Shown here: positions 22,688-45,283 of the stretch, one piece after another
Position numbering within the stretch: position 1 is the stretch's first letter
How the letters are laid out: every line of letters begins with the position of its first letter
Origin: Spirosoma pollinicola
Lineage (GTDB): Bacteria > Bacteroidota > Bacteroidia > Cytophagales > Spirosomataceae
Reading direction: 5' to 3'
DNA length: 64,000 bases
NCBI RefSeq assembly: GCF_002831565.1
Contig: NZ_CP025096.1
Coordinates: 6,005,014-6,069,013 of the forward strand
Made by a program: the position numbers and the translations under genes
Notes under the pieces: model-generated
Seen by the model: only the letters and a program-made list of their open reading frames with translations
The model's database searches: none
What the model was told of the DNA's origin: nothing

Positions 22688-22826
22688 GGTTGGCCGCTGG
22701 CGCGGGTATTTACCCGTGCCATCAATATAGCCAGTATTTACTGGCACATAAAACGTTGTTAGTGCCGCCAGCGAATGCTGGCTATATTGATGGCACGGGT
22801 AAATACCCGCGCCAGTGGCGCCCAAC
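22688..22826. repeat. Long inverted repeat with ~47-bp arms after the BatA-like gene
   Basis: GGTTGGCCGCTGGCGCGGGT (arm to 22734) is mirrored by the arm 22778-22826, which ends ACCCGCGCCAGTGGCGCCCA. The arms are nearly perfect and each contains a smaller GGGTATTTACCC palindrome and TATAGCCAG. The 43-nt centre carries a further CGCCAGCGAATGCTGG palindrome. It lies between convergent genes; a degenerate copy is at 13184-13232. It looks like a dispersed palindromic element rather than a simple terminator. Confidence 0.8.
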
Positions 22827-22876: not shown

Positions 22877-23845
22877 CTATAACACCAGATTTGGTATTCG
22901 GAACCCCATTTCCTGCACGATTGAGTCAGTTTCGAAGACTTCCGCATTTATGTCGACCTCTTCAACAACCAGCTTAATCGGTCGGCTGTCCGTGTACGAA
23001 TCAGCCGCATCCGGCAACTTGATTCCGGTTAACTGCTCTATCGTTTCTATGCTCACCTGAAACGTGTCGGCTTCACTAAACTGCATGAACAGTTTGGCCT
23101 CATCGGTCAACACCTCAAAATCTTCCAATTCCTGAGTCACTACTTCAACAATACCGTTGCGTTCCAGTAACGACTTTTGTCCCATCAAAAACCCCGTTCG
23201 GTATAATTTGCCATCGCTTTTCGGGAAAACAACCACCTTCCAGAAAAGGAAGGGTATTTTGAGTTGGCTGTTTTGGACGGGCGTAACAAAAATCGGGTCG
23301 AGGTCTGATAGAACCGGCCCCGTAAATACGCAAATCTTAAGATCATCGCGCACCGCTTCCGAATGAAGAATATAATCTTCAAGGTCAGCCCATATGCGTT
23401 GGTTTAGTTTAGCGTGCTGAGGCACAGCATTGGTATAATAAAATGTCGAATCGGCGGCATTGGTCGCGTCGAGTACGGTACTGCCCCATTGCACATCTTC
23501 CCGTTTGGTCATGTGTCCTTTGTCAAAATCACTGTGGGGCGCTTTATATAGTTCCGGCCCCCATTGGCTGTCTGCATCAATGCGGGGGTCTTTGCGCCAG
23601 TTATCTTTTCTGTTGACCTTTTTGAAAAGAGTACCATCAATATTAGACGCGGTGAAATAGGGGAACTTCCTCGACTTGCTGATCACGGCGCTGTAGTTGA
23701 CATAGTGGGCAATATTATCTGTTGTTCCTGCTACTGTTGCCAGGTCCTTATGCTGATTGGCCGTCAGGTTGGGGAGTGTTACCTGTAAGTCGGCACCTAA
23801 GAAATTGGGTAAGTACCCGTTATAATTTTTGAGGGTAGTAGGCAT
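22877..23845 (-). CDS. DNA/RNA non-specific endonuclease (NucA type), putative eCIS-linked nuclease
   Basis: 322 residues. The family signature is visible as SDFDKGHMTKREDVQWG (normally DRGHM), with the general-base His at 111. The metal-binding Asn region is YTNAVPQHAKLNQRIWADLEDYI (N139, N148). Flanking strands are YSAVISKSRKFPYFTASNIDG and DDLKICVFTGPVLSD. Enzymes of this fold cut single- and double-stranded DNA and RNA with Mg2+. Family members are usually secreted, but this one starts MPTTLKNYNGYLPNFLG with no signal peptide. It is the last gene of the hydrolase cassette, 34 bp after the caspase gene. No immunity gene is evident. A translocated toxin or a self-acting nuclease are both possible. 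Confidence 0.85.
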   Translation of the reverse strand: MPTTLKNYNGYLPNFLGADLQVTLPNLTANQHKDLATVAGTTDNIAHYVNYSAVISKSRKFPYFTASNIDGTLFKKVNRKDNWRKDPRIDADSQWGPELYKAPHSDFDKGHMTKREDVQWGSTVLDATNAADSTFYYTNAVPQHAKLNQRIWADLEDYILHSEAVRDDLKICVFTGPVLSDLDPIFVTPVQNSQLKIPFLFWKVVVFPKSDGKLYRTGFLMGQKSLLERNGIVEVVTQELEDFEVLTDEAKLFMQFSEADTFQVSIETIEQLTGIKLPDAADSYTDSRPIKLVVEEVDINAEVFETDSIVQEMGFRIPNLVL

Positions 23846-23879
23846 GTTGGTATTTGGTTGAGTGTGTGATTGGTTGTTT

Positions 23880-26033
23880 TTAATGAGTCAAGTGCCAGTT
23901 GACGCGTAGCTCGTGGAGTGCGTCTCCGTTTCCTGAAAAGGCAGTAAATAAGCCACCGGGAAGGAAAAATTGGCGGGCATTCTTCAAAACGGCCAATGTG
24001 CCAGATAGGCTTTCGGAAGGTTGATTATCTTTATTCACACCTTCTGTAAGAGCGCCGGCTTCCCGGATGGCATAACTAATCACTTCGCCTGTAACGGGTA
24101 AACCTCGCTTGTGCATTGTCAGGAGACAATCGCCAGTACGCTGTTGATACACGGCTTCATTGGGGGCTGCCTTTTCCAGTCTGAATAGGTACTCATTCAG
24201 TAAAACAGGGGTGTCGGCATACTCAGGAAACCAGTTAAGCAGGTTTTCGAGCCATTCGCGAGGCAGCTTATCCGTACGACCTAGCCGAAATAGAATAATA
24301 GAAGCAATAAGGGCACTTAGGGGGTCCCGCATTTTGCCGTAAACGAGGTTATTAAGGAAGTTGACATCCATATCTTCGGTTGCTTTAGCCGCGCCATAGT
24401 TTTCGTACTTTTCCCATAGCAGGGCCGCAGCCTGAAGTGTTCCCTCGTTATCGGGTGATAAGCTCAGTTGAAGTCCACTGATACTGAAGATAAAAGGCTG
24501 ACCGGGGGCCGACTCCTCAACAATAAATTCGGCGACAAAAAGAGGTCGTATACCATCTGTTATACAGGGCAGAATCAGGGCATAACTAGTTCTGTCATCT
24601 GTCAATTCGAGCCAGTATAATCCCTTGTCGTTCAGTGTAAAACTAACCTGATAACCAATACGGTCGGGCGTACGCGCCACTTTCTGAAAGAGTATGGGTT
24701 GATTAACGGGTTCGTTTGTGCCAACCCTGTAGAGCCGCGCATTGCTCCACATAGCTGTTACGGTTTCGCGACCAAAAAAATCGTGGGCACTTAGCGCAAA
24801 GGACTCGCCAGAAAAAGGATTCCAGAGTCGTTGACCCGACAAGGCATAAATCTCAAAAAGCGGACCGTCGTCTTCATCGACAAGGCTACTGGGATCGTCA
24901 TCAGCAGGGCCGAAGTACTCGTTGTTGGGAGCCATTTCATACGCATTTATCTCATTGTCAAATGCGGAATCAGTGGCATCATCGCTCGAACCAAAAAAAA
25001 TGTCACGTTCTTGCGGTAGGGGAACTGCCGGTATCAGCATATCTGGCCTGATGTGGGTAACAACGGCAAATGAGTCATCATACTCGCCGGTAACTTTTAC
25101 GCGCTGTTTGAGTGGACTTTTGTATTGTTTCAGAAGGTCGTTATAGGCAGTTCCAACGAATTGGTGCAAGGGCGACCACTGTACCGAATACGGAACCTGC
25201 TGCCGATCCAGAGCAAAGTTGCGCTCAGCTTTCAGTCCCGACAGCAGCGCTTGTCCAAATAATGAAATGCCCTTGTCGACAGAGCGCGGGCCGAATGTCT
25301 GCTGGCCCGAAGCTGTTGCATACATAAGCATCAGATTACAGTCGGGATTGGTCATGTGGGCCAATCCCTGATCAAAAACGCCGTCACCCTGAACGATCCT
25401 CTCCCGCAACTCGGGTGTGTCATTCCGGCAGGCATCCAGAAAAATAAACTGGTTGCCCACTTTTAATTCCATGAGTGCGGGCCGGGCTGCTCCCAGATTC
25501 ACGGCATCGTTGAGGGAGCCGCCTGTTGGTTCGAGGTAATCGGTAGGTAACAGAATCTGCTCTTCGTGCGAGACTTCCAACCCATGCCCACTGTAAAAAA
25601 AGACGGCCCGGCTGTGTCTGGCCGCTTCGTCGTCGATTTTCGCCATTGATCTATACCAGGCTCGTAAGGCTTTGCGGCAGTTTATATAGGTCGGCACGAG
25701 GGTGTTTGCCAGCACCTCGTCTTTCATGACCGCCCGTTCCTGCTGAGTAGGGGCCAGCAGAAGCCAGCATTGCGCCAGTTGGCAGGGTGCGCCCGGCCCT
25801 GGTGCGTAGAGATACTGATCACGAAGCCACTCGAACAGGCGGTAAGCCGTTAAGGCCGAAACCGCCAGTTGGCCCAGACCGTAGTTGTTTTCGGCTAGCT
25901 GGGGGGCATTGCCGTCTTTAAGATAGGGGTAGTCACTTATCCCGATCAAGACAGCAAATGTACCCGCGTCGCCGGGTTTCCAGGCAGGATTGGTCCACAG
26001 GCCCGGTTGGGTAGGGTCGGGTTGCAGCATCAT
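23880..26033 (-). CDS. Caspase-family (C14) peptidase with C-terminal extension
   Basis: 717 residues. The N-terminal 210 residues hold a caspase-like p20 fold: FAVLIGISDYPYL, SRAVFFYSGHGLEV (His150) and NQFIFLDACRND (Cys202). The dyad is intact. A linker with acidic repeats precedes about 300 residues of beta-rich sequence (RVGTNEPVNQPILFQKVARTPDRIGYQVSFTLNDKGLYWLEL) and a helical end, with no recognised domain. Prokaryotic C14 enzymes act in programmed death and in conflict systems. Its start overlaps the hydrolase stop (ATGA, 26030-26033), which implies translational coupling. No signal peptide. Confidence 0.88.
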   Translation of the reverse strand: MMLQPDPTQPGLWTNPAWKPGDAGTFAVLIGISDYPYLKDGNAPQLAENNYGLGQLAVSALTAYRLFEWLRDQYLYAPGPGAPCQLAQCWLLLAPTQQERAVMKDEVLANTLVPTYINCRKALRAWYRSMAKIDDEAARHSRAVFFYSGHGLEVSHEEQILLPTDYLEPTGGSLNDAVNLGAARPALMELKVGNQFIFLDACRNDTPELRERIVQGDGVFDQGLAHMTNPDCNLMLMYATASGQQTFGPRSVDKGISLFGQALLSGLKAERNFALDRQQVPYSVQWSPLHQFVGTAYNDLLKQYKSPLKQRVKVTGEYDDSFAVVTHIRPDMLIPAVPLPQERDIFFGSSDDATDSAFDNEINAYEMAPNNEYFGPADDDPSSLVDEDDGPLFEIYALSGQRLWNPFSGESFALSAHDFFGRETVTAMWSNARLYRVGTNEPVNQPILFQKVARTPDRIGYQVSFTLNDKGLYWLELTDDRTSYALILPCITDGIRPLFVAEFIVEESAPGQPFIFSISGLQLSLSPDNEGTLQAAALLWEKYENYGAAKATEDMDVNFLNNLVYGKMRDPLSALIASIILFRLGRTDKLPREWLENLLNWFPEYADTPVLLNEYLFRLEKAAPNEAVYQQRTGDCLLTMHKRGLPVTGEVISYAIREAGALTEGVNKDNQPSESLSGTLAVLKNARQFFLPGGLFTAFSGNGDALHELRVNWHLTH

Positions 26034-27385
26034 GGCTGGTGCCAGTTAATAGCGCGGGCGGTACGCAGTTTATCGGCAAACGTGCGGTAAAAGCTGGGCC
26101 GTTCGAGGTAGCCACCGTGTGCATCCAGCGTGGATGATCCACTGTCGTAAAATTCATCGTCAACATCTTCGAAGATGGACTCGCCCGTAAAACTCAGGAT
26201 GTCGTTCGCATCCCACACGTTCCACCAATCCCCTAAATAACGTCGATCGGGAAACGGCACTTTGTTCATTTTCGCTTTGGAATAGGCTGAACTACTAGCC
26301 AGAAAGAGCTTCATCTCCTCGAAAAGCCCAACCTGCGAGGCTGTTGCACACCAGAAATCCACCCGCATCTTCTGATAAAGGGCTACCTGTGGCAAAAATG
26401 TTGTTACAGCGTCATACACGATCTGCCCGCCCATGCTGTGCGTGAGTACAACAATCGGTTCAAATCGACCCTTGGCTTCGGCCTGTTGCTGACTGGTATA
26501 AGCCTGATTCAATGCGTTGAGAAACTGCATCGGAATCGTGCCCGGTTGCAGTTCAGCTGGCTCTGCTTCGGGTAAAATGGCAACTGGTTTTGCCAGGCGG
26601 TTGGCTAAATACACAAATACATCGCCGATAAAGAGTGTAACGGCTGAGTTAACTACGGGTCGAAACTCACCCAGTAGTCGCGACACGACGAAACCCGGCG
26701 TTTGGTTTGCCCGGGTCAATAGTTCATTCAGTCGATCTTTCAGATTCGGAAACCAGCCCGCGCCCATACCCAGCAAGGGGTCGTCGGTGGGTGCCAGTTG
26801 ATCGTATCGCTGTTTGATAAGTGACTGTAACAGTGAAACTTCTTCGGCAGTAGTCGCGCATGCCTGAAGGCTGGCTCTCGTAGCGGGATCGCGGGCAACA
26901 TCGTCAGCGGCAATGATCATTCGTGATTGCTGGACGGGATTAGCCCCCTGCTGCATAAGCATAGCGGCCAGCAAATCGCTCAGTTGATCGTTTGTCAAGT
27001 CGCGCAGTCGCTGTGGTTTGGTAGTGCTTACTACTGGCGTTGCTGGTCCGGCAGCCAGTAACTCATCTTCCGGTGCTGTTTCGACCACTGATGGGGATGC
27101 GGGCAGCTTCCCGAGCGAATTGCCGAGAGAGGCCAGTAGGACGGCACGTTCGGCAGGCGTTGGTTCGGTATCGAATCCCTGACCGAGCAGGGCGGTACGT
27201 GGGCGTGATTCGCCATCCCAGGCAAATTTGACACCATCATCCCCCCAGAATACGGGAAATATGTCGACGTTGTCCGGATCGTCCGGATTTATTTCCTGCG
27301 TAATGTATCGCCGTAAATAGGGTTCTTTTTCTTTCCACGCGTTTTCATCGCGGACGGCAACACCATGAACGTAAATGAGCGGCAT
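26030..27385 (-). CDS. Alpha/beta hydrolase (lipase/esterase-like)
   Basis: 451 residues. The first strand MPLIYVHGVAV carries an HG oxyanion motif. The nucleophile elbow is VVLTHSMGGQIVYDA (Ser317). The acid is probably the Asp in NVWDANDILSF, and the His is in STLDAHGGYLERPSFY. An insert of about 200 residues (helical, with a hydrophobic segment near VVNSAVTLFIGDVFVYLANRL) separates the start from the elbow and may be a lid or membrane-contact region. This shape resembles the PGAP1-like or lipase-type hydrolases found in bacterial conflict loci. It lies in the cassette between the M19-like gene (46 bp) and the caspase gene (4-bp overlap). No signal peptide. Confidence 0.82.
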   Translation of the reverse strand: MPLIYVHGVAVRDENAWKEKEPYLRRYITQEINPDDPDNVDIFPVFWGDDGVKFAWDGESRPRTALLGQGFDTEPTPAERAVLLASLGNSLGKLPASPSVVETAPEDELLAAGPATPVVSTTKPQRLRDLTNDQLSDLLAAMLMQQGANPVQQSRMIIAADDVARDPATRASLQACATTAEEVSLLQSLIKQRYDQLAPTDDPLLGMGAGWFPNLKDRLNELLTRANQTPGFVVSRLLGEFRPVVNSAVTLFIGDVFVYLANRLAKPVAILPEAEPAELQPGTIPMQFLNALNQAYTSQQQAEAKGRFEPIVVLTHSMGGQIVYDAVTTFLPQVALYQKMRVDFWCATASQVGLFEEMKLFLASSSAYSKAKMNKVPFPDRRYLGDWWNVWDANDILSFTGESIFEDVDDEFYDSGSSTLDAHGGYLERPSFYRTFADKLRTARAINWHQP

Positions 27386-27431
27386 GAGCTGACTAATTAA
27401 GGAGTTAGGAGTGAGGTTCAGGAAATAAAGT

Positions 27432-29129
27432 TTACTTAAAACTGGTAAGCCAGCGCTTTATGAATCGCTCGCCATTTGTGTACAGCACATCGCGCACAAT
27501 ACCTTTCAGATATTTGGCTTCTACCTCGCCCTGTTGATTGCGGGTTAGAAGTGGGCCACCACCGTTTTGTTTTCGATAAGCCCGTTCGGCAATGGGTAAC
27601 CATCGAATCAGATTATCTTCCAGCACGGGTAGTTGACTCACATCGCGGCAGTTGATAACGGGGTTTATCAATCCATCGTAATCGCTGCCAATGCAGATGT
27701 GCTGCCAGGGGTTTTGGTCCGTACGAATCATACCGACCGATACAATGTGTAGTATGTTGAAACACAGTGCCAATGGATGGCGCTCTTCGCGGGTGGGAAC
27801 GAGTTGGGACTCCGGGGCGGGGGGCGCAAATTGTTGAAAGCGTTCGGGGAAAAAGAAACGAAATTCCTCCGCCGATACGAACTCGTCTTTGTCGCCTTTG
27901 CTCAAAAGATCCTGCCACCCCAAAATCCTAACGTCCAGACTCACGCCAATCAAGCCATTGCTGTCGAGAACGGCTTCAATGTCTTCGTCCATTAAATTAA
28001 TGGACCAGGCATTGTAGGTAAATTCTTTATTGATAGCACCCCAGAAACCAGCGGTTTTCCGGTCCACATTAATTGTCACAACAGGTTCGCCCGAAGGTAG
28101 CCGCATAGGGCTCGCGTCGTTCAGGGCTTCTTTCCAGGCATTGATGGAATAACCCGTAACCCCAATGTGACTGGCAATAAGGGGAAGCTGGTAGTTCTTT
28201 TCACGACGATATTGGTAAAAATCGAGTCGCGATTTAAGGCTCATGTGTTTAATGTCAATCAAAACCGGCGCTGGGGTCGACGTAAAAGGTACGTCGACGT
28301 TAAGCGTGTAAGCAGCATCAATTACCTGACGACCCCGGAGAGACAGGCCGTTACCCATCGGATAACTGCTCACGTCACTAATCATCTTCATGCCAAACGC
28401 ATGGGTGGCCAGTGGCTGTTCGTCAATATGCGAGAGGTGAGTCAATACCAGATAGCATAAATCCAGATCCTGTCGCCAGAGTGCCTGTTGTAACTGACGC
28501 AGGCTTTGGGCCGGATTGCTGGTAAAGCCCGTTGTAAAGTCTATTGATAACGAATCGGCCAGGGTAACGCTTAGCGACGTGTCGGGGATGTTTGGGTGTC
28601 CAATCAATGTTCGGCACAGGCCATGCCCACCCTCAAGGCTAAGGGCTAAATTTGGCCGCGACGATGGGGCGTCCAGCGATTTAGGCGTCTTTCGGCTGAG
28701 CATATTGATATGCCGGGCATCGTGTAAACGCTTGTAAATATTTACCTCCCGAATAAATAGCTGATAATACGACACCTGCCCATCACGAACGCGGTCCATA
28801 TACGTTAGGTCCAAGGGCTTGGTGAGGCCTGAGTTGAGAATTTTTCCGAACAGCCCGCCATCACTCTTGTTCGTAAACAGGTGTTCGATGGGAGCAATGG
28901 CCGCAACGCCCACGGCCAGATGGCCAATGTCCAGTTGGTCAACGCACGACTGGCTGCCCAATATGTGCAGAAGCTCCTGATCGAGTAGACTAACGAGAGG
29001 ATTTGTCAACTCAAATTTGCCCGTTAAGTCGGCCAGCGACCGTGTAGACGGATAACTGTCTTCGTATTTACAGATGAATTTCTTAAAAACCGGATGAAGG
29101 TGAAAGTCGAAAAAGTTGGTAGTAGCCAT
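27432..29129 (-). CDS. M19-like (membrane dipeptidase family) metallo-hydrolase
   Basis: 565 residues, longer than the usual 350-400. Family landmarks are visible in order: N-terminal FDFHLHP (H10, H12), LSLEGGHGL (Glu166, bridging-ligand position), VLTHLSH (H231, H234), IASHIGVTG (H321) and ICIGSDYDG (481-486). In renal dipeptidase the first motif is HxD; here it is HxH, so the first zinc site may differ. Members hydrolyse dipeptides or lactone-like substrates with a di-zinc centre. No signal peptide or GPI-like tail is present. It lies 36 bp after the trypsin-subtilase gene. The family assignment is good; the substrate is unknown. Confidence 0.8.
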   Translation of the reverse strand: MATTNFFDFHLHPVFKKFICKYEDSYPSTRSLADLTGKFELTNPLVSLLDQELLHILGSQSCVDQLDIGHLAVGVAAIAPIEHLFTNKSDGGLFGKILNSGLTKPLDLTYMDRVRDGQVSYYQLFIREVNIYKRLHDARHINMLSRKTPKSLDAPSSRPNLALSLEGGHGLCRTLIGHPNIPDTSLSVTLADSLSIDFTTGFTSNPAQSLRQLQQALWRQDLDLCYLVLTHLSHIDEQPLATHAFGMKMISDVSSYPMGNGLSLRGRQVIDAAYTLNVDVPFTSTPAPVLIDIKHMSLKSRLDFYQYRREKNYQLPLIASHIGVTGYSINAWKEALNDASPMRLPSGEPVVTINVDRKTAGFWGAINKEFTYNAWSINLMDEDIEAVLDSNGLIGVSLDVRILGWQDLLSKGDKDEFVSAEEFRFFFPERFQQFAPPAPESQLVPTREERHPLALCFNILHIVSVGMIRTDQNPWQHICIGSDYDGLINPVINCRDVSQLPVLEDNLIRWLPIAERAYRKQNGGGPLLTRNQQGEVEAKYLKGIVRDVLYTNGERFIKRWLTSFK

Positions 29130-29165
29130 AATCGAGCGTGAGGAAGATAGGGTGGATATAGCCGT

Positions 29166-31952
29166 TTATTGGTTGAAATAGTACCGAAGAAGCTCGTCGG
29201 AATCTGTTGTCACCGAACTACTCTCCCGGGCGCCTGTTGTTGTGGGTCGGCTGAATGCGCTCAACGCCTGTTGACCAAGTGGTGTAAGCGGCACCAGCGG
29301 CACGGTACTTTCTGTAGCCCCCGGCGCTACTTTCTGCCGAACTATATTCCATAGGAAATGAGCTGCTTCGGCAATGCCCACACCCAACGGGTGGGAAGCT
29401 GACTGGTTCTGATAGGCATGTATAAGCGTCGTTGGCGCGGGTAAGGGCTCTGTCAACAGGTTGGTAATATCCAGAATGCCCGCCCCATAGCCCTCTTTGG
29501 GCCACTTGACAGATCGGGCTGTTTTTTTCAATACCGTCCGAAATGCTTCGACTACCTGCCAGGGTAGGTAATCGCTTAACGCTTCGTAATGCCTTGCCTT
29601 CCAAAGCATAGCCGCGGCTGCCACTTGCGGGGTTGCATAGCTGGTACCACTCCCATAGGCCATAATTTCCTGGCCCTGCTTGTCCAGAAAGGGCACATAC
29701 ACATCTTCGCCCGGAGCCGCAATATCGACCGAAGGGCCGTGGCTGCTACCCGACCAGGGAAGGTCATCAGGGTTGGTAGCGGCTACGGCGATGGTTCCTG
29801 GATACATGGCGGGAGCAACCACCAACCCTACGTCGTTGCCGGCAGCACACACCCAAATAACGCCTTTCTCGTAGGCCTCCCGCGCAATGGCGTCAAGCAT
29901 AGGGCGAGGATAGCTGCCCATACACATAAACAAAACATCGGCTCCGCTGCGTATGGCATAATTTACCCCATCAACTACCTGCTTACCCCGCCCAATCAGA
30001 ATGACCGATTGCGCAATTCGGTAGGGGATGAGTCGAGTGAGTCGCTTGCCCGCAGAGACCAATAAGCCACCGTTGCCATCAAACGTAACTGTGGTATCGG
30101 CTAAGGGGCCACCCACTACGATGCTGGCGGTTCGGGTGCCATGATTTGGAAATTTTAACCCGATACTGGCTTCCTCATCGCGTGCGTTGTCATCGTCGTC
30201 AATGAAGTCGAAATCGAGATCGGTGTTATACCCGCCCAACACTTTCGAATGATCCGAATAACCCGTGTCCAGTTGAACGATCCGCATTTGAGCCAGCCGG
30301 TCGCGTTCATCCGGCGACAGATCAGGTACTGGCTGAGTTACAGAAGGCCAGTTAATGGCCGACCAGTTCCACCAGCGCTGTTGATCTTTCCCATTTTTCA
30401 GCGCGGCCTTTACCTGGATAGATTTCTCCCAATTGCCAAGAAACTTCGCTTCATTGAGTTCGGCGGTCCCATCATTGAAAACAAATTCAGATTCGGTCGT
30501 GCGTACCGGCGCAACAGTATCCGACGTGTTTCGGCCAATATCGGTTAAGCTTTGCAAATCGGGTCGGCAGCTATCAACCTGCGGCAACCCCTCTATGGCA
30601 GCCGCAATAGCCCAGGGGTTACCGGCCGATTGAATCGTCAGGTACCACATTCGCCGGACAAACGGATCGCGGGAAGTGGGCAGCAGGGGCGACAGATCGA
30701 TTAGTCCCGGAACTAGTTCTTTGGCCCGTCGACTCCAGTCGGCCTGAAGGGCGGGCTGATCGGTTAGCAGCACCTCAAAGTAAAGAAGGCTGCCGGTAGT
30801 TGGGGCTGATGCTTGTTTAGGAGCGACTGAAGCGGGTATTGGACTGGATTCTGTACGAACAGGCGTAACGAGTGGCGGGGTAGTCATGGGTATGAGGGGA
30901 GGTGTTGTTGTGGCAACCAGCGTTGGCGATTGTGCTTCGATGATCTTTGTCCGAAAGGCCTGCATCGAGTCTGGAATCGGTAAGTTCCTGAACGCTTCGA
31001 CGATGCAGCTCACCCGAACGCCTTCGTTGCCAATCCAGTCGATATCTTCGTCGGTATCACCGGGCTGGCGAATTTTGCCGTCTTTCCGAAGCCAGTTGCC
31101 CGCGTCATCCTTACGCGGCACGGCGCTGTGGTGCAGGCCAACGGCATCGGCGGTGCCCAGCCCCAGTACTAAACTTCCCGATGAACCGGGTAAGGTATCG
31201 GCTTCATAAATAAGGAAATTATCGGTGAGCGTAATCAGTCGAATATCTTTCAGCACCACTTTTTTGTAGTCGCCTTTTGGGTGCTGAATCACCACACAAT
31301 TCTCCCCTTCAATGATTTTGCCGAGTGATGAGTCGAGCTTTATATAGCCGAATTTAGTGAGCGGGGTGCCATCGTCACTAGCCGGTTCAACGGCTACCAG
31401 CGTGAAATCACGTCCACTAAAAGGAACATCGGCGTTTACGGTATAGGGAGAGGTTAGGAAAAATAAGTCGGGGCGCAGCTTGAACGAAATGGGCGAAAGT
31501 ACCTGTCCATCATCGCCTAGCTCGTAATTGAACTGGGCCCGCGCCCGGCTGGCGGTCGCTGCGTCCGGGAAAACGTGGTTGTTGGTAATAATAACATTTG
31601 GCGCTATTAAAAAGCCTGTTCCATAGCCTGTAATACCCGATGGACCCTGTAATACAATCCGGCAAACACTGGTTGATGCCCGCACGATTTTTCGGACGAT
31701 GGCCATATCCTGAAAATCGGGAATACCATTGATACGCTCCAAAGCTTCTTTAAACTCACCGCTTTCACGAGCGGCCCGTTTTAGCAGTTGGGATTTGTCG
31801 TCCGTAATTTCAGTAAGAGGACGCACCCCAAACCGGTTTTCCGTTATTCGCCGGGTTATTTTGTCGATTTCGTCGGCATGAGCGGCATAATTAGTAGCCG
31901 CTTTATCGGCGAGGTAAAGGGTGGTAGGATCAAAAGGAGTAGACTGTGTCAT
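29166..31952 (-). CDS. Trypsin-like / subtilisin (S8) protease fusion
   Basis: 928 residues from the ATG at 31952; the frame opens at 32030, and the residue numbers here use that longer form. First a trypsin-like domain: His152 (NVIITNNHVF), Asp208 (GRDFTLVAVE) and Ser284 (LPGSSGSLVLG). A Pro/Thr linker follows (about 370-410). Then an alpha/beta prodomain-like part (LLYFEVLLTDQ) leads into a full S8 domain: Asp588 (VQLDTGYSDH), His630 (NHGTRTAS), Asn732 (CAAGNDVG) and Ser797 (GSGTSYATP). Both triads look intact. No signal peptide. It opens the hydrolase cassette 39-116 bp after the AAA+ gene. It could process cargo or activate the neighbouring caspase; that is inference. Confidence 0.88.
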   Translation of the reverse strand: MTQSTPFDPTTLYLADKAATNYAAHADEIDKITRRITENRFGVRPLTEITDDKSQLLKRAARESGEFKEALERINGIPDFQDMAIVRKIVRASTSVCRIVLQGPSGITGYGTGFLIAPNVIITNNHVFPDAATASRARAQFNYELGDDGQVLSPISFKLRPDLFFLTSPYTVNADVPFSGRDFTLVAVEPASDDGTPLTKFGYIKLDSSLGKIIEGENCVVIQHPKGDYKKVVLKDIRLITLTDNFLIYEADTLPGSSGSLVLGLGTADAVGLHHSAVPRKDDAGNWLRKDGKIRQPGDTDEDIDWIGNEGVRVSCIVEAFRNLPIPDSMQAFRTKIIEAQSPTLVATTTPPLIPMTTPPLVTPVRTESSPIPASVAPKQASAPTTGSLLYFEVLLTDQPALQADWSRRAKELVPGLIDLSPLLPTSRDPFVRRMWYLTIQSAGNPWAIAAAIEGLPQVDSCRPDLQSLTDIGRNTSDTVAPVRTTESEFVFNDGTAELNEAKFLGNWEKSIQVKAALKNGKDQQRWWNWSAINWPSVTQPVPDLSPDERDRLAQMRIVQLDTGYSDHSKVLGGYNTDLDFDFIDDDDNARDEEASIGLKFPNHGTRTASIVVGGPLADTTVTFDGNGGLLVSAGKRLTRLIPYRIAQSVILIGRGKQVVDGVNYAIRSGADVLFMCMGSYPRPMLDAIAREAYEKGVIWVCAAGNDVGLVVAPAMYPGTIAVAATNPDDLPWSGSSHGPSVDIAAPGEDVYVPFLDKQGQEIMAYGSGTSYATPQVAAAAMLWKARHYEALSDYLPWQVVEAFRTVLKKTARSVKWPKEGYGAGILDITNLLTEPLPAPTTLIHAYQNQSASHPLGVGIAEAAHFLWNIVRQKVAPGATESTVPLVPLTPLGQQALSAFSRPTTTGARESSSVTTDSDELLRYYFNQ

Positions 31953-32068
31953 GGCAGAGAGGGAATGGAATAGTGCTCGAAATTGAGCAAACTGATTGAT
32001 AATAAGGGTAGTATAAACACCCTTTTCCATCGCGTACTTTCCCTGTTTTTAGTGAGCGGTGTATTGCG

Positions 32069-33412
32069 TTACATCATGCGGCCTTCTTTGGCATACTCCC
32101 GCTCAATGCCTTTCTGAAGATTAGTAAGCGTAACAACGCTCGTTTTCCCTGCCAGTGCCTGCAAGCAGCAGTAGTGGGCTACATTGGTAATATTAGAACC
32201 GCTCAGCTCATATTTCTCGGCGATACGGTCAATATGAACGGTATCATCCAGCGTTACCTGGGTTGGAAAAACCTTATGCCATAGTTGAGCGCGTTCTGAA
32301 ATCCCCGGCATCGGAAAATAGATGACCGATTGAAAACGGCGCAAAAAAGCTTCATCAATATTGGTTTTGAAGTTGGATGCCAAAATGACGATGCCGGCAT
32401 AGCTCTCTACCCGTTGCAGCAGGTAGGAAGCTTCCTGATTGGCGTATTTATCGTGGGCGTCTTTCACATTTGTGCGCTTGCTGAAGATCGCATCGGCTTC
32501 GTCGAAAAATAAAATCCAGTTCTTGTTCTGGGCTTTGTCGAACAGGCCGGCCAGATTTTTTTCCGTTTCGCCAATATACTTCGAGACAATGGCGGGTAAA
32601 TCGACCCGAAACACGGGCCGGTTTGTAAACTTGCCTAACAGGGAGACGGTCAGGGTTTTTCCTGTGCCGGGAGGACCATAGAACAGCGCTCGGTAACCTG
32701 GTTTTAACTGGCGATTCATGCCCCAGTCGTTTAGCAGCACATCGTTGTACTGAATCCAGGTTTCGAGTTCCCGAATCTGGCGGAAGGTGGCCGGGTTTAA
32801 AACCAGATCGGGCCACTCTAATTGGGTCGACAACGGTTCGGCCGGAAAGTCAGAACTGAACGTTTCGACGTAATTGGTCTGAAACAGCGTTTGGGCCAGA
32901 AAATCGGCATCTACCAGCAGGCGGCCACTCATTGGCGGCTCGCCAGCTTTGACGCCCTCCAGCATTACGATGCGTTTTCGACTAAAAAGATGTTCTTTCG
33001 ATACAAGTTTCTGCACGTCAATCCGTGCCGCTAAATCATTGCCTGCCAGAATGAAAAGAACCGTTTCGCCGGTAGGTAATATGCCCCGATGGTTCGTTCC
33101 TTTTACGCCCCCGAATTCAATCAAATCCCCCCCTTGTGGTAAGATAGACGCCATGATATTGGTTAGCAAAGCGGGGGCCACATGCGGCACCAGGGCCAGC
33201 ATTAGAATGATAAACTCTTCTGCCGAAAGTGAATTTTCAATAACAAACGAAGCCAAGGGCGAACTGCCATAAAAGTCGGGCGAGAGCGGTAAGTCAAACG
33301 TTTGTTTTTTACCAAAATGTACGCTGAGCCGCTCCCGAATATAAGCGTCGAGATAAGTTATACCTGCCTGAAGGGCAGGCACCGAAGAGATAACTGGCTG
33401 GTATTCTGACAT
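32069..33412 (-). CDS. AAA+ ATPase of the eCIS (Afp15/PVC15-like)
   Basis: 447 residues. An N-terminal domain of about 200 residues (ITYLDAYIRERLSVHFG and so on) precedes one AAA+ module. Walker A is GPPGTGKT (246-253), Walker B FFDEAD (302-307), sensor 1 ASN (345-347) and the arginine finger RRF (358-360), with the pore-loop phrase SKYIGETEKN before Walker B. Afp15-type ATPases are required for assembly or cargo loading of extracellular contractile injection particles. Position is as expected: right after the DUF4157 cargo gene (12 bp) and before the protease cassette. Together with the sheath, tube and baseplate genes it makes the locus an eCIS rather than a phage or T6SS. Confidence 0.92.
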   Translation of the reverse strand: MSEYQPVISSVPALQAGITYLDAYIRERLSVHFGKKQTFDLPLSPDFYGSSPLASFVIENSLSAEEFIILMLALVPHVAPALLTNIMASILPQGGDLIEFGGVKGTNHRGILPTGETVLFILAGNDLAARIDVQKLVSKEHLFSRKRIVMLEGVKAGEPPMSGRLLVDADFLAQTLFQTNYVETFSSDFPAEPLSTQLEWPDLVLNPATFRQIRELETWIQYNDVLLNDWGMNRQLKPGYRALFYGPPGTGKTLTVSLLGKFTNRPVFRVDLPAIVSKYIGETEKNLAGLFDKAQNKNWILFFDEADAIFSKRTNVKDAHDKYANQEASYLLQRVESYAGIVILASNFKTNIDEAFLRRFQSVIYFPMPGISERAQLWHKVFPTQVTLDDTVHIDRIAEKYELSGSNITNVAHYCCLQALAGKTSVVTLTNLQKGIEREYAKEGRMM

Positions 33413-33424
33413 TGGAACGGTTGG

Positions 33425-35131
33425 TTAATCGAAGCCGGTTAGCGACGTAGGGGGAGCCCAGAACCGATCATTTACGCTTTTGGCCAGCGTGGCCAATTGC
33501 AGCGATGTTGACTCCGAAACATCACCGTAACGCATCAGAATGAGCCGATAAATTTCGATTGTCCGATCGTCCTCGTTCAACGAAAACAACATTGGACATA
33601 CATGAATGGTATCGCTGGTTATGAATAGGAAGTAGCGATAATAACCCGTTACATTACGGTCGCAGCTACGTTCACACTCCAGCGTTACTGATGAGCCTAA
33701 CCGACTGTAGACCAAGTCATAAACTCGCCTGGCCTGTAGGATATTGGCGGCTGCTGTTCCGCCTAAATGGCTTGTCTGCAAATCCTGCCATTGCGATAGC
33801 ATACCTGGCCGGGTGTCGCTGGTTATGTTCTGGGCATTTCGATTCCACCGCTCAAGCTGAGCAAGCGACCGGCGAATGGGTGTAGCCTGCCGGTCATTGC
33901 AGTCATTGGTTTCATCGCGCGGGGCTGTTGTTGGCTGCGGTGTATTTGTGCCCACTTCCAGGCAGAAATTTTCGTAGGAGGCTGCATTGGTCAGTGCTTC
34001 CATGGTTGACTGCATCCGATAGTACCGATCACTCTGGTAAGCACGGTCAGTTATGTGCGTAACGCCAGTGAGGGTATGGGCCATCTCGTGGATGACGCTT
34101 ATTGCCTGCCAATTGGCAGATCCGTTGAAGAAGGCTGGACAGAAAACAAACAGATTACCCGTTACATACGCACCGGCAGCATTGCAACTGGTATCGGTTG
34201 TGGTGTGGCATTCGACCTGTAAATCGGGCCGGGAAAGGATCTCGCTGTCAATCCGGCCAAATATTCGACGAACACGGCCTGCTGTTTCAGCCGTAGAGGA
34301 ATGGAAATGGCGTTCCAGCGCAGCCTGAACACCGGGTTCACGCGCAGGGCTGCCAATAAACGTGTCGAGCCGCCGAATCGTGGCGCGTAGCCAGGTTGTG
34401 GCCTGCCTGACAGCGGGTTCAATCTGATGGTGCTGATCGAACGAGCAGGCTCCCGGTACATTGTCGACAGTAGCTGTTGGCTCCCGCTGTATTCTCTTGC
34501 GTTGTATTCCCGCGTTTTGCTGTACCACGTGCGTTAGTTCGTGCGCCAGCAACTGCTTTCCCGCCCGACTGTCGGGGGCATATTGACCGTTGTTGAAATA
34601 CACATCGTTCCCATAAGTAAAGGCATGGGCATTTAACTGGCGGCTGAGCTGTACGGCCTTCGCATCGGTATGCAGCCGGACATTAGAAAAGTCGGCACTC
34701 AGCGCATTCTCCATAAAACCGCGCGTTTGATTTGGTAAAGGCGAACCTCCACTTCTGCCGCTCGTTAGCTGATAGCTTACATCGGCACTGGCGGTCGTTT
34801 CGGTATTGCTGCTTTCTTTTCGTTGTATTTTTTTTTCTTCTTCCTCACAGTGTGCGCATTTGCGCTGGATGGTGGCTGGTGATACGGAAGCCAGCGATGG
34901 AGAAGAAATTGAGGCTGGGTCATTCATCGTCATAACCCGGCTGGCCATGGCATCGGCTTCCTGTTCATAGGCATCGTTGGAGGCACCAACGACTAGCTTG
35001 GGCTGCACGGTAACGGGCGAAAAAAACAGGGACGAGGCTGCTTCATCAAAGAAGCTCCTGTTTGTTCGGGTTGGCGAAGCAGCCTGAGAGCCATTCGCTT
35101 CGCGCGGGGAGGTATTTGGAGACGTTCTCAT
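33425..35131 (-). CDS. eCIS-core (DUF4157) protein with M35-like metalloprotease domain
   Basis: 568 residues. An unstructured start is followed by IQRKCAHCEEEEKKIQRK, a cysteine pair often seen in such cargo. The DUF4157 domain (about 120-205) has FMENALSADFSNVRLHTDAKAVQLSRQL and HELTH (197-201). The C-terminal half is a second zincin: VIHEMAHTLTG (HEMAH 348-352) followed by ITDRAY and ALTNAASYENFC. The His-Glu-x-x-His plus DxAY and NAxSY pattern resembles deuterolysin/aspzincin (M35) proteases. DUF4157 is the hallmark of eCIS-linked toxins, so this is a likely proteolytic payload. An 80-bp AT-rich gap upstream may hold a promoter. No signal peptide. Confidence 0.85.
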   Translation of the reverse strand: MRTSPNTSPREANGSQAASPTRTNRSFFDEAASSLFFSPVTVQPKLVVGASNDAYEQEADAMASRVMTMNDPASISSPSLASVSPATIQRKCAHCEEEEKKIQRKESSNTETTASADVSYQLTSGRSGGSPLPNQTRGFMENALSADFSNVRLHTDAKAVQLSRQLNAHAFTYGNDVYFNNGQYAPDSRAGKQLLAHELTHVVQQNAGIQRKRIQREPTATVDNVPGACSFDQHHQIEPAVRQATTWLRATIRRLDTFIGSPAREPGVQAALERHFHSSTAETAGRVRRIFGRIDSEILSRPDLQVECHTTTDTSCNAAGAYVTGNLFVFCPAFFNGSANWQAISVIHEMAHTLTGVTHITDRAYQSDRYYRMQSTMEALTNAASYENFCLEVGTNTPQPTTAPRDETNDCNDRQATPIRRSLAQLERWNRNAQNITSDTRPGMLSQWQDLQTSHLGGTAAANILQARRVYDLVYSRLGSSVTLECERSCDRNVTGYYRYFLFITSDTIHVCPMLFSLNEDDRTIEIYRLILMRYGDVSESTSLQLATLAKSVNDRFWAPPTSLTGFD

Positions 35132-42958: not shown

Positions 42959-45283
42959 TCATTTAGGTATACGCTGAAGTTGTTTTTTCGGAATCGTAGT
43001 AGTTGTTTTTTGGGGTACTGTACTCCCGGTAGCCGCCTTCAACGTAAAGTTTTTGTTAGGGATGAGCACGTTTACGGCATCGGGCCGGAATTCACGAGCC
43101 ACGCTCGGGATCTTCTCGCTAACTTTGAACTCTGTCAGGTTACCCGTAAATACCTTTTGTTGTAAAATCGAAATCGAACCGGCCGACTTTGTCGTGCTCT
43201 GGACCGTCAATGTGTAGCTACCGTCCTGATTGTCAATTATTGAACTCAGCTTTGCCGATGGTGCATTAATATCGAAGGCATCGGTTGCGGCTGGGCCCAG
43301 AAACCGGCCATAGGTAGTGACCGGCCTCACCGTCATGACTAGTTTCCCATTCGTAAAAACATTGCTGATCACCGATTTGCCAATGTCAATCTGTCCGGCT
43401 TTTACATACATACTCTGCATTTCGTAGCGGTCATACTGCCCCCGAATACTGTCCTGTCCCTGAATTCTAAAGACAATCTGGTAAATGCCCGCTACGTTCA
43501 TTCCGGAATAATTGCCTTCGTAGCGACCATTTCCGCGGTACGTCAGCATAACCACCTGTTCAACAGGGGTGAGGGCTCTTACGAAGCTGGCGTCTTCCCG
43601 GAGTAGTGTCTGGTATTTCAGGATACCAACTGCCGACCGATCCTGTTGCCGGACGGGTACGGCCGCTTTTTTGGTATTGCGTGCCATCAGGTCGCCAATA
43701 TCGTCGCCGGGCCGGTAGACCATTGCCGTAATTGTAGCATTCTCGATAGGTTTCCCCCGGTCGCTGAACTGCACGGCAAACGTCTGGGTATCGCCCACGG
43801 TGGGTAAGGCATTACCTTGAGAGCAGGTATAGTCCAGCATGTGATCGTCGGCAATAACGGCGATGCGATACGTCAGCCCACTGGCCGGGCCGTTGGGTTG
43901 GGCCGTAACAGTCCAGTTTCCCTCGGAGCGCAGCTTGTTTGCGTAGGCTTTATCGGTATTGAATGAGAAGGCATACATGTATGTGTTTGGCGAACTGCCT
44001 ACCCAGCGCGGAGTTGCCAGGGCCGTTACGTCCTGGCCATTTCGACTGACCCGTATTGCCGCAACAAGTCGGGCAAGTTGGGGAATCTCGAAGTTTTTGT
44101 TCAGCGATACTTCAATGAGCAGATCGTCAACATTTTTATTGAGAGGAAAATCAACGAGACCCTGGGCCGCACTGCCAATACTACCTGATTTCGTGCGGAT
44201 TAACTGGGGGCTATTGTCACGCAGGAGGTTGATGAACGCCTGCGTGAATATGGCGTCGATGTTGCCGATAACCATACTGGTAGTGTTGGTAAACGAGTTG
44301 CCATTGGAGGTGAGCAGGCAATTTCCCCCGCTTTTGGTCGCCAGGTTTTGCAACGTTGTGAGGTAGGTTGGACTGGGATTTCCTATGCCTATCGTGAATA
44401 TTTTCAGGTTGCCTGACGAACCGGGCAGCACCGGGCAGTTCGCGTTAAGCGCCACACCGCCTACGTCGCAGCCGTTGGTATTGACAAGTGGCGCTACATT
44501 CTGTTCGCCATCCGTAAACAGCAGAATATCCCTTGTTCGGGTGGCATCGGCCAGTTTTGTTTTTGCGTCATTTATGCCAAGTCCCATCGCTGTTCCGCTT
44601 CCAGGTGAAAGTCCATTCATAGCCGTTTGAACCATTGTAGCCGCCCCCGGATCAAGGGGTAATAGGCTATTGCCGAAGGTCGAAGGCGTTAGGCCAGTCT
44701 CAAAAAAAGTTAAACCCACACGGTCGCCGGGTTGGGCAAAAGCCGGGTTTGAGAGTTTCAGCATGAAGTTGTTGACGGCTGTTTTCAAGGCATCCCAACG
44801 TGTAGTAGTACCTTCTGAAATGATACCCATGCTCCCCGATTTGTCCAGAACGAAAGAAAGGTCCAGCGGTCGGCGAACGTCGATGCGGTATTCGCGGGCA
44901 TGGCCCTCAACGATAAGAACGAACGTGAGTGAACCAGACGTGGGCGCAACGCCAGTCCAGCCAACACTGGCCGTTGCGGCACTCGATACCGAGCCTACCG
45001 GGAGGGTAATTGTAATGCCCTGACAAACATAGGGGTTGTTGTCTGTAGCGGGGCAGCCCCCAATACCGATGGGCGTGGGTACGCCAAAAAAGCCCCAGCT
45101 CACATTGGCAGGCGCTCCCACTACGCCAATATTTATGGTCTGGGGTGCCCCCACAATCAATATGATTGGGAACGTGGGGCGGTCTTCATTGAAACTTATA
45201 TCCTGATCGGCAGCCTGCGTAACGAGCGTGGTTAGCAGGATGAAACAGGTCAGGAATAGATGTAGGAAAATGGTCTTTTTCAT
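42959..45283 (-). CDS. Secreted von Willebrand factor A domain protein of the eCIS cluster
   Basis: 774 residues with a signal peptide (MKKTIFLHLFLTCFILLTTLVTQA). After about 110 residues of beta-rich sequence comes a vWA domain with the MIDAS motif DKSGSMG (147-153), the threonine of the AKT/GTAMG region and FTDGEQN. A long Ig-like C-terminal part (VVMLTYRGNGRYEGNYSG; QDGSYTLTVQ) ends in a basic TTIPKKQLQRIPK tail. vWA domains bind protein ligands through a metal ion. It is the only gene of the minus-strand eCIS block with a clear Sec signal, so it should reach the periplasm or surface. A receptor, anchor or release factor for the particle is possible. Spacing to the tape-measure gene is 23 bp. 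Confidence 0.82.
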   Translation of the reverse strand: MKKTIFLHLFLTCFILLTTLVTQAADQDISFNEDRPTFPIILIVGAPQTINIGVVGAPANVSWGFFGVPTPIGIGGCPATDNNPYVCQGITITLPVGSVSSAATASVGWTGVAPTSGSLTFVLIVEGHAREYRIDVRRPLDLSFVLDKSGSMGIISEGTTTRWDALKTAVNNFMLKLSNPAFAQPGDRVGLTFFETGLTPSTFGNSLLPLDPGAATMVQTAMNGLSPGSGTAMGLGINDAKTKLADATRTRDILLFTDGEQNVAPLVNTNGCDVGGVALNANCPVLPGSSGNLKIFTIGIGNPSPTYLTTLQNLATKSGGNCLLTSNGNSFTNTTSMVIGNIDAIFTQAFINLLRDNSPQLIRTKSGSIGSAAQGLVDFPLNKNVDDLLIEVSLNKNFEIPQLARLVAAIRVSRNGQDVTALATPRWVGSSPNTYMYAFSFNTDKAYANKLRSEGNWTVTAQPNGPASGLTYRIAVIADDHMLDYTCSQGNALPTVGDTQTFAVQFSDRGKPIENATITAMVYRPGDDIGDLMARNTKKAAVPVRQQDRSAVGILKYQTLLREDASFVRALTPVEQVVMLTYRGNGRYEGNYSGMNVAGIYQIVFRIQGQDSIRGQYDRYEMQSMYVKAGQIDIGKSVISNVFTNGKLVMTVRPVTTYGRFLGPAATDAFDINAPSAKLSSIIDNQDGSYTLTVQSTTKSAGSISILQQKVFTGNLTEFKVSEKIPSVAREFRPDAVNVLIPNKNFTLKAATGSTVPQKTTTTIPKKQLQRIPK

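Follow-up and report, generated by a model that had tools for sequence, protein, structure and literature searches.

A five-gene cassette behind an eCIS operon

The window analysed here is a stretch of 64,000 nucleotides of Spirosoma pollinicola (positions 6005014-6069013 of an 8.79-Mb contig). It contains an operon for an extracellular contractile injection system (eCIS) and, directly behind the AAA ATPase gene that ends it, a cassette of five genes at 22877-31952, all on the minus strand. A first-pass annotation had described five same-strand genes with short gaps or an overlap at this place, and the coordinates, strand and spacing were confirmed. Behind the AAA gene the order is TRYSUB (a trypsin-like protease joined to a subtilase), an M19-like gene, an alpha/beta hydrolase (ABH), a caspase (CASP) and a nuclease (NUC). 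The intergenic gaps are 116 bp (AAA-TRYSUB), 36 bp (TRYSUB-M19), 46 bp (M19-ABH) and 34 bp (CASP-NUC), and the ABH and CASP genes overlap by 4 bp.

32069-33412, minus strand: AAA ATPase, last eCIS gene and attachment point of the cassette (Pfam AAA, 9e-29)
29166-31952, minus strand: TRYSUB, with an N-terminal segment (~105 aa), trypsin-like protease, linker and S8 subtilase; presumed trigger protease (Pfam, conserved triads)
27432-29129, minus strand: M19-like metal-dependent amidohydrolase, constant partner of TRYSUB (Pfam, profile match, site residues)
26030-27385, minus strand: putative lipase/esterase-like alpha/beta hydrolase (sub-threshold Pfam, HSMGG motif, pairing with the caspase)
23880-26033, minus strand: caspase-like protease (C14) with a C-terminal extension (Pfam Peptidase_C14, 2e-7)
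22877-23845, minus strand: NucA-type nuclease (Pfam Endonuclease_NS, E 4e-39)

Hydropathy analysis found no transmembrane-level peak and no N-terminal hydrophobic stretch in any of the five proteins, in agreement with the earlier statement that signal peptides are absent; all five look soluble. Recognisable active sites had also been claimed for all five. Residue conservation supports this for the trypsin, S8, M19, caspase and nuclease domains, and for ABH there is the HSMGG motif only.

TRYSUB and its M19-like partner

The longest TRYSUB open reading frame starts at 32030, but 31952 is the likely start because 31953 is where the DNA begins to resemble the Spirosoma fluviale orthologue. The full frame (29166-32030) matches Trypsin_2 (3e-13) and Peptidase_S8 (4e-27) in Pfam. 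In an alignment of 32 rows, 30 of them trypsin-bearing (near copies L144, L161 and L180 omitted), the trypsin triad H152/D208/S284 is kept in all 30. The S8 residues D588, H630 and N732 are present in 32/32 rows and S797 in 31/32.

The M19-like protein matches Pfam Peptidase_M19 over residues 378-509 only (2e-7; 31.1 bits against a cut-off of 26). Its profile matches GliJ/renal dipeptidase at two histidines and the GSDxDG motif, with H295, H321 and D483 corresponding to GliJ. The residues of the binuclear metal site (H10, H12, E166, H169, H295, H321, D483, D485) are kept in 77/77 sequences. The first metal-site motif is HxH in this family; in the M19 family it is HxD.

Genome contigs were scanned with the M19 alignment and the best 80 of 156 relatives were taken as loci. 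A full-length S8 partner gene adjoins the M19-like gene at 34 other loci in this set. The order is TRYSUB then M19 in 32 of the 34, mostly 2-40 bp apart, and no third gene is constant beside the pair. At two Saprospiraceae loci (L172, L174) the M19-like gene comes first and is followed by a caspase-S8 protein, with the caspase in place of the trypsin. A large convergent gene lies beside this arrangement at both (L172, 8925-12503; L174, 9257-12871), and in L172 it encodes a caspase fused to a PGAP1-like alpha/beta hydrolase. TRYSUB and the M19-like protein are a conserved, co-inherited pair of Bacteroidota.

The closest relatives of both proteins are those of Spirosoma fluviale (77% and 82% identical, respectively). 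Full-length TRYSUB occurs in 8 of 150 genomes of the bacterial family, own genome included, and the M19-like gene (E<=1e-40) in 2 of 36 genomes of the genus. A prophage or plasmid origin was rejected: no M19 relative was found among viral contigs, and one among 72,556 plasmid records. That record is the Hymenobacter canadensis plasmid NZ_CP114769.1 (L254), where amidase, TRYSUB, M19 and amidase genes stand in a row; a NucA nuclease gene of the same strand lies 6.7 kb upstream of them. An IS3-type transposase and lantibiotic genes lie near this plasmid pair.

A second pair and the nuclease

ABH has only sub-threshold alpha/beta-hydrolase matches in Pfam (E 0.014 and 0.049), and its HSMGG motif sits at a strand-turn-helix in a poor structure model (mean pLDDT 59). 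The caspase residues H150 and C202 are kept in 3/3 sequences. At E<=0.1, sequence profiles of ABH and of CASP retrieved no relative of known structure. The two genes, with the same 4-bp overlap, recur in three genomes of the 150-genome family sample (G349, G362, G384), and they form a second conserved pair. A caspase profile run against 295 genomes from the class matched no copy but the window's own at E<=1e-12. None of these three copies lies beside an eCIS. The 36-57 kb around them shows no run of eCIS genes, with one weak baseplate-like match in G362, and in G384 an eCIS is found on a different contig. The caspase-like gene that follows ABH in G384 (L107) reads as two open reading frames of 379 and 466 aa, perhaps through a frameshift or an assembly error.

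The nuclease carries a D-(R/K)-G-H motif in four of five aligned domains and QRGH in the fifth. TRYSUB-type trypsins are also met with nucleases elsewhere: they are fused to Endonuclease_NS at four loci (L071, L072, L073, L075; L071 Pfam-checked) and adjacent to it in L074. Other partners are PLDc_2 (L070, L077) and proteins bearing EAD1-SIR2, nSTAND1 or EAD11-NB-ARC (L066, L076). The window's own genome contains a second TRYSUB-type trypsin of 340 aa (L069, 3996000-4015999), followed by same-strand genes of 390 and 1071 aa, a layout that resembles the L066 locus with its EAD1 and nSTAND1 proteins. The cassette is a stack of separately inherited pieces and not one unit.

Two attachments to eCIS operons

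The rest of the eCIS occupies 33425-63990, entirely on the minus strand.

33425-35131, minus strand: eCIS_core (DUF4157) protein with an Aspzincin_M35 domain, likely eCIS cargo (Pfam)
35212-63990, minus strand: remaining eCIS in the window, with sheath, tube, baseplate, spike, tape measure, second eCIS_core and accessory genes (Pfam)
22697-22815, no strand: long near-perfect interspersed palindrome just after the nuclease gene (fold of intergenic DNA)

Its Pfam content comprises two sheath, two gp19-type tube and one CIS_tube protein, gp25, baseplate J, PAAR, a phage_base_V spike, CIS_TMP and two eCIS_core proteins. Two further genes lie inside the operon: 35212-36372 matches prolipoprotein diacylglyceryl transferase (PF01790, E 5e-17), and 42959-45283 encodes a vWA protein with an N-terminal hydrophobic stretch and with relatives in L115 and L117, the two nearest eCIS of the genus. 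The palindrome is one of many interspersed copies (73 genome matches, both strands counted). A foreign base composition of the cassette was rejected, its G+C of 0.47-0.53 showing no contrast with 0.49-0.53 in the eCIS genes. A promoter and terminator scan found sites no more frequently than in shuffled sequence.

Genes of an eCIS are in view at 2 of the 34 TRYSUB-M19 loci, those of Rufibacter psychrotolerans (L150) and Sabulibacter ruber (L151). At least 6.9 kb of upstream DNA was available at 29 of the 34 (the short ones are L133, L138, L152, L172 and L174), and lone eCIS-like BLAST matches at L131, L142, L149, L161, L180 and L200 were not counted. In both genomes tape measure, eCIS_core, AAA, TRYSUB and M19 genes follow in succession, with 194 bp (L150) and 169 bp (L151) between AAA and TRYSUB.

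In the trees of TRYSUB (35 rows) and M19 (34 rows) the eCIS label needs two changes. Well-supported branches force both, and none of 200 bootstrap trees gets by with one, although the tree program flagged long branches in both trees. The AAA tree (56 proteins) puts the window's protein with those of the same-genus L115 and L117, and the AAA of L150/L151 with L122 and L125; none of these four loci carries cassette genes. Because the TRYSUB, M19 and AAA trees each need two events, the attachments are independent: TRYSUB-M19 was attached twice directly behind the eCIS AAA gene. The link to the eCIS proposed earlier thus gained a second, separately attached lineage, and the idea of one five-gene cassette belonging to the eCIS was lost. 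The five-gene order was found nowhere else, and parts of the cassette are common away from these operons, the circumstance that the first-pass annotation had named as telling against it.

If all gene positions were equally likely, the chance of one such landing in 34 loci would be about 0.001. This null is too simple, because the 3' end of eCIS operons collects toxin genes (PMC8213781). The same tendency speaks for the five enzymes, or some of them, being payload that is loaded in the eCIS tube and injected into targets. Proximity to a DUF4157 gene predicts cargo (PMC11297309), and TRYSUB alone among the five lies within two genes of one, with AAA between it and 33425-35131. Unlike that neighbour, the five proteins lack an eCIS_core domain in Pfam (the domain is common in cargo, not required), no obvious immunity gene was seen, and many genomes carry these pairs away from any eCIS. 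A payload role is unlikely, and it fits least of the three options first offered for the cassette (payload, release or lysis, and a proteolytic cascade that activates cargo).

Relation to known systems

The kinds of enzyme match published conflict and programmed-death modules, a kinship that the earlier reading had recognised. System 3 of Kaur et al. 2020 couples a NucA endonuclease to trypsin and subtilisin peptidases, and a proteolytic cascade has been proposed for it (PMC7159879). The cassette shares its Endonuclease_NS, trypsin and S8 domains, with Endonuclease_NS and the trypsin-like domain three genes apart, and trypsin-nuclease fusions exist in the window's bacterial family. It differs in lacking EAD1 or STAND among the five (Pfam), which typify a subset of the systems, in the added M19-like gene and caspase-lipase pair, in its place behind an eCIS and in its host, System 3 being mostly alphaproteobacterial and this locus belonging to Bacteroidota. 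The ternary VMAP systems place a caspase with a neighbouring alpha/beta hydrolase (PMC7159879), as do the window and three other genomes. A MoxR-vWA filing was nevertheless rejected since the MoxR ATPase, vWA and VMAP set is absent beside the pair: the AAA protein is of the PF00004 type, the vWA gene 42959-45283 belongs to the eCIS operon, and no VMAP was found among the proteins scanned. Both pairings, trypsin-NucA(-S8) and caspase-alpha/beta hydrolase, have thus far been published as such (PMC7159879).

Defence proteases that activate nucleases are known from canu and from nuclease-protease pairs (PMC12799240). The logic of protease plus nuclease, caspase included, is the same here; the canu pro-nuclease has a metallo-beta-lactamase fold and the window nuclease is of the Endonuclease_NS type. 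PADLOC gave generic matches only (caspase, AAA, weak trypsin). IetAS pairs an AAA protein with an S8 protease, and the window has an AAA gene beside an S8 domain. This filing was rejected too, as the AAA protein scores 100.8 bits against the IetA cut-off of 510 and no IetS match is listed for TRYSUB.

These parallels speak for the rival view that the genes are anti-phage suicide (abortive infection) modules which settled behind the operon and have no eCIS role. Their module types are those of published conflict systems (PMC7159879), and activation of nucleases by proteases is established in defence (PMC12799240). The patchy presence of TRYSUB and M19 in family and genus, the one plasmid copy, the trypsin relatives beside EAD and STAND/NB-ARC proteins and the many pairs that occur without an eCIS all point the same way. 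Against it, no sensor or STAND protein was found among the five in Pfam, the PADLOC matches are generic, and two independent landings behind the same eCIS gene are improbable unless the place is an insertion hot spot. The defence view is a serious possibility, nearly as probable as the release role set out below.

A connection between immune proteases and particle release has a precedent. Lysis and the release of gene transfer agents depend on LypABC, a CARD-NLR-like system that includes a trypsin-endonuclease protein, so immune proteins of the trypsin type can act in freeing a phage-derived particle (PMC13236601). Both systems have trypsin and trypsin-endonuclease proteins among them or their relatives and possibly serve such a particle. 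No NLR-type ATPase occurs among the window's five (Pfam), and in the account of PMC13236601 lypABC is not described as linked to particle genes, while the cassette sits behind an eCIS. Particles of eCIS are generally described as leaving through lysis of the producer, and Afp has an adjacent lysis cassette of endopeptidase, holin and lysozyme (PMC12961389). The likeness lies in lysis genes (putative ones in the window) beside an eCIS; the difference is that the five proteins hold no holin or peptidoglycan hydrolase domain and no transmembrane peak. Streptomyces needs an eCIS for its developmental cell death to proceed normally (PMC10020575).

The M19-like partner was not found in the conflict-system literature searched, an absence that counts for little given limited coverage of subscription papers. 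The main text of PMC7159879 contains neither the word dipeptidase nor amidohydrolase, dipeptidase is also absent from PMC8195603, and a literature search found nothing that combined three of the four subjects membrane dipeptidase, trypsin-like, subtilase and anti-phage. No title or abstract retrieved joins eCIS and caspase, and the word caspase is absent from the main text of two eCIS surveys (PMC8213781, PMC11297309). The cassette combines parts of known kinds with one partner that is undescribed, and its TRYSUB-M19 pair was attached to an eCIS at least twice.

A possible release programme

The reading we tentatively favour, at somewhat less than even odds, is that of a protease-gated demolition cassette which acts inside the producing cell and plausibly releases eCIS particles. 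Intracellular action is suggested because signal peptides are absent and the genes also occur without an eCIS. A signal would activate TRYSUB (the trypsin, then the subtilase) and the caspase, and these switches would process the executors, namely the nuclease, the lipase-like enzyme and perhaps the M19-like enzyme; which protease cuts which enzyme is a matter of conjecture. DNA, membrane and cell wall would then be attacked and the producer would die or lyse. A further conjectural step is that the cassette here may open the cell once eCIS particles are ready, replacing a holin-lysozyme cassette of the Afp type. Of the options first raised, release or lysis thus fits best, and an activating protease cascade is compatible with it.

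Release is favoured over plain defence only because of the repeated position behind AAA and the envelope-breaking company that the M19-like family keeps. Genes of this family repeatedly lie near lipases or near peptidoglycan hydrolases of unrelated kinds (amidase, CHAP, M15). Among the neighbours examined with Pfam, which were a picked subset, Amidase_2 with or without a peptidoglycan-binding domain lies near M19 in L254 (twice) and L205, and below threshold in L172. CHAP with such a domain does so in L160, L162 and L196 and stands four genes off in L203; L201 has M15 with peptidoglycan binding and L135 a peptidoglycan-binding protein. Lipase-type neighbours, for which there is no control count, are a DUF900 alpha/beta hydrolase plus a Tle1-like phospholipase (L189), patatin (L198), DUF900 (L064) and Abhydrolase_1 (L148). 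Each peptidoglycan group was found again when its own sequences were removed from the peptidoglycan-binding profile (leave-one-out). Peptidoglycan-domain profiles matched 11 of 187 same-strand genes within two places and 1 of 577 genes at least four places away, a difference to be discounted in part: the profiles were built from near hits, loci that are related were each counted separately, and the near hit in L134 is weak.

Other observations weigh against release as well. Our peptidoglycan-binding, CHAP and amidase profiles match nothing in the window, and no peptidoglycan hydrolase lies near the pair in L150 or L151. The tight neighbours of lone M19-like genes include enzymes and proteins unrelated to lysis (glycoside hydrolases, a phosphodiesterase, DUF998, an amidohydrolase). 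Most TRYSUB-M19 pairs are away from any eCIS. The TRYSUB leader is partly similar to that of the stand-alone Spirosoma fluviale pair, so TRYSUB may have a promoter of its own. In the LypABC system the nuclease activity of LypC is dispensable for lysis (PMC13236601).

The eCIS side gives a similar picture. CIS_TMP was found in 20 of 150 family genomes and 75 of 395 phylum genomes. Downstream stretches of 59 other eCIS were compared, of which 53 show the AAA gene and eight are cut by contig ends; 40 of them, from 37 genomes, came from the phylum eCIS genomes, with family f17 and a few others (G092, G282, G286, G471, G483) omitted. None of the 59 carries TRYSUB, M19, ABH, CASP or NUC, with one weak subtilase match in L212, so most sampled eCIS do without the cassette. 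This result also counts against a role in maturation, by which the proteases would process eCIS structural proteins or cargo after assembly. Such a role would suit the adjacency, the common strand and the two proteases with intact predicted sites, and it leaves the nuclease, M19-like and lipase-like genes unexplained; we consider it very improbable.

A broader proposal is more doubtful than release itself: that TRYSUB-M19 is a previously undescribed lysis module of Bacteroidota that swaps partners (endolysin-type peptidoglycan hydrolases, lipases, caspases, NucA nucleases) and was recruited at least twice to the ends of eCIS operons as a protease-triggered release programme.

No holin or endolysin was seen with this locus, though exit of eCIS particles is generally described as lytic (PMC12961389). 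If enzymes of a death system release the particles, conflict systems and injection machines would meet here, the death system being the exit route. The uncharacterised M19-like family would gain a testable role in envelope breakdown. If the genes serve only against phage, their repeated landing would mark the spot behind the eCIS as a settling place for such genes.

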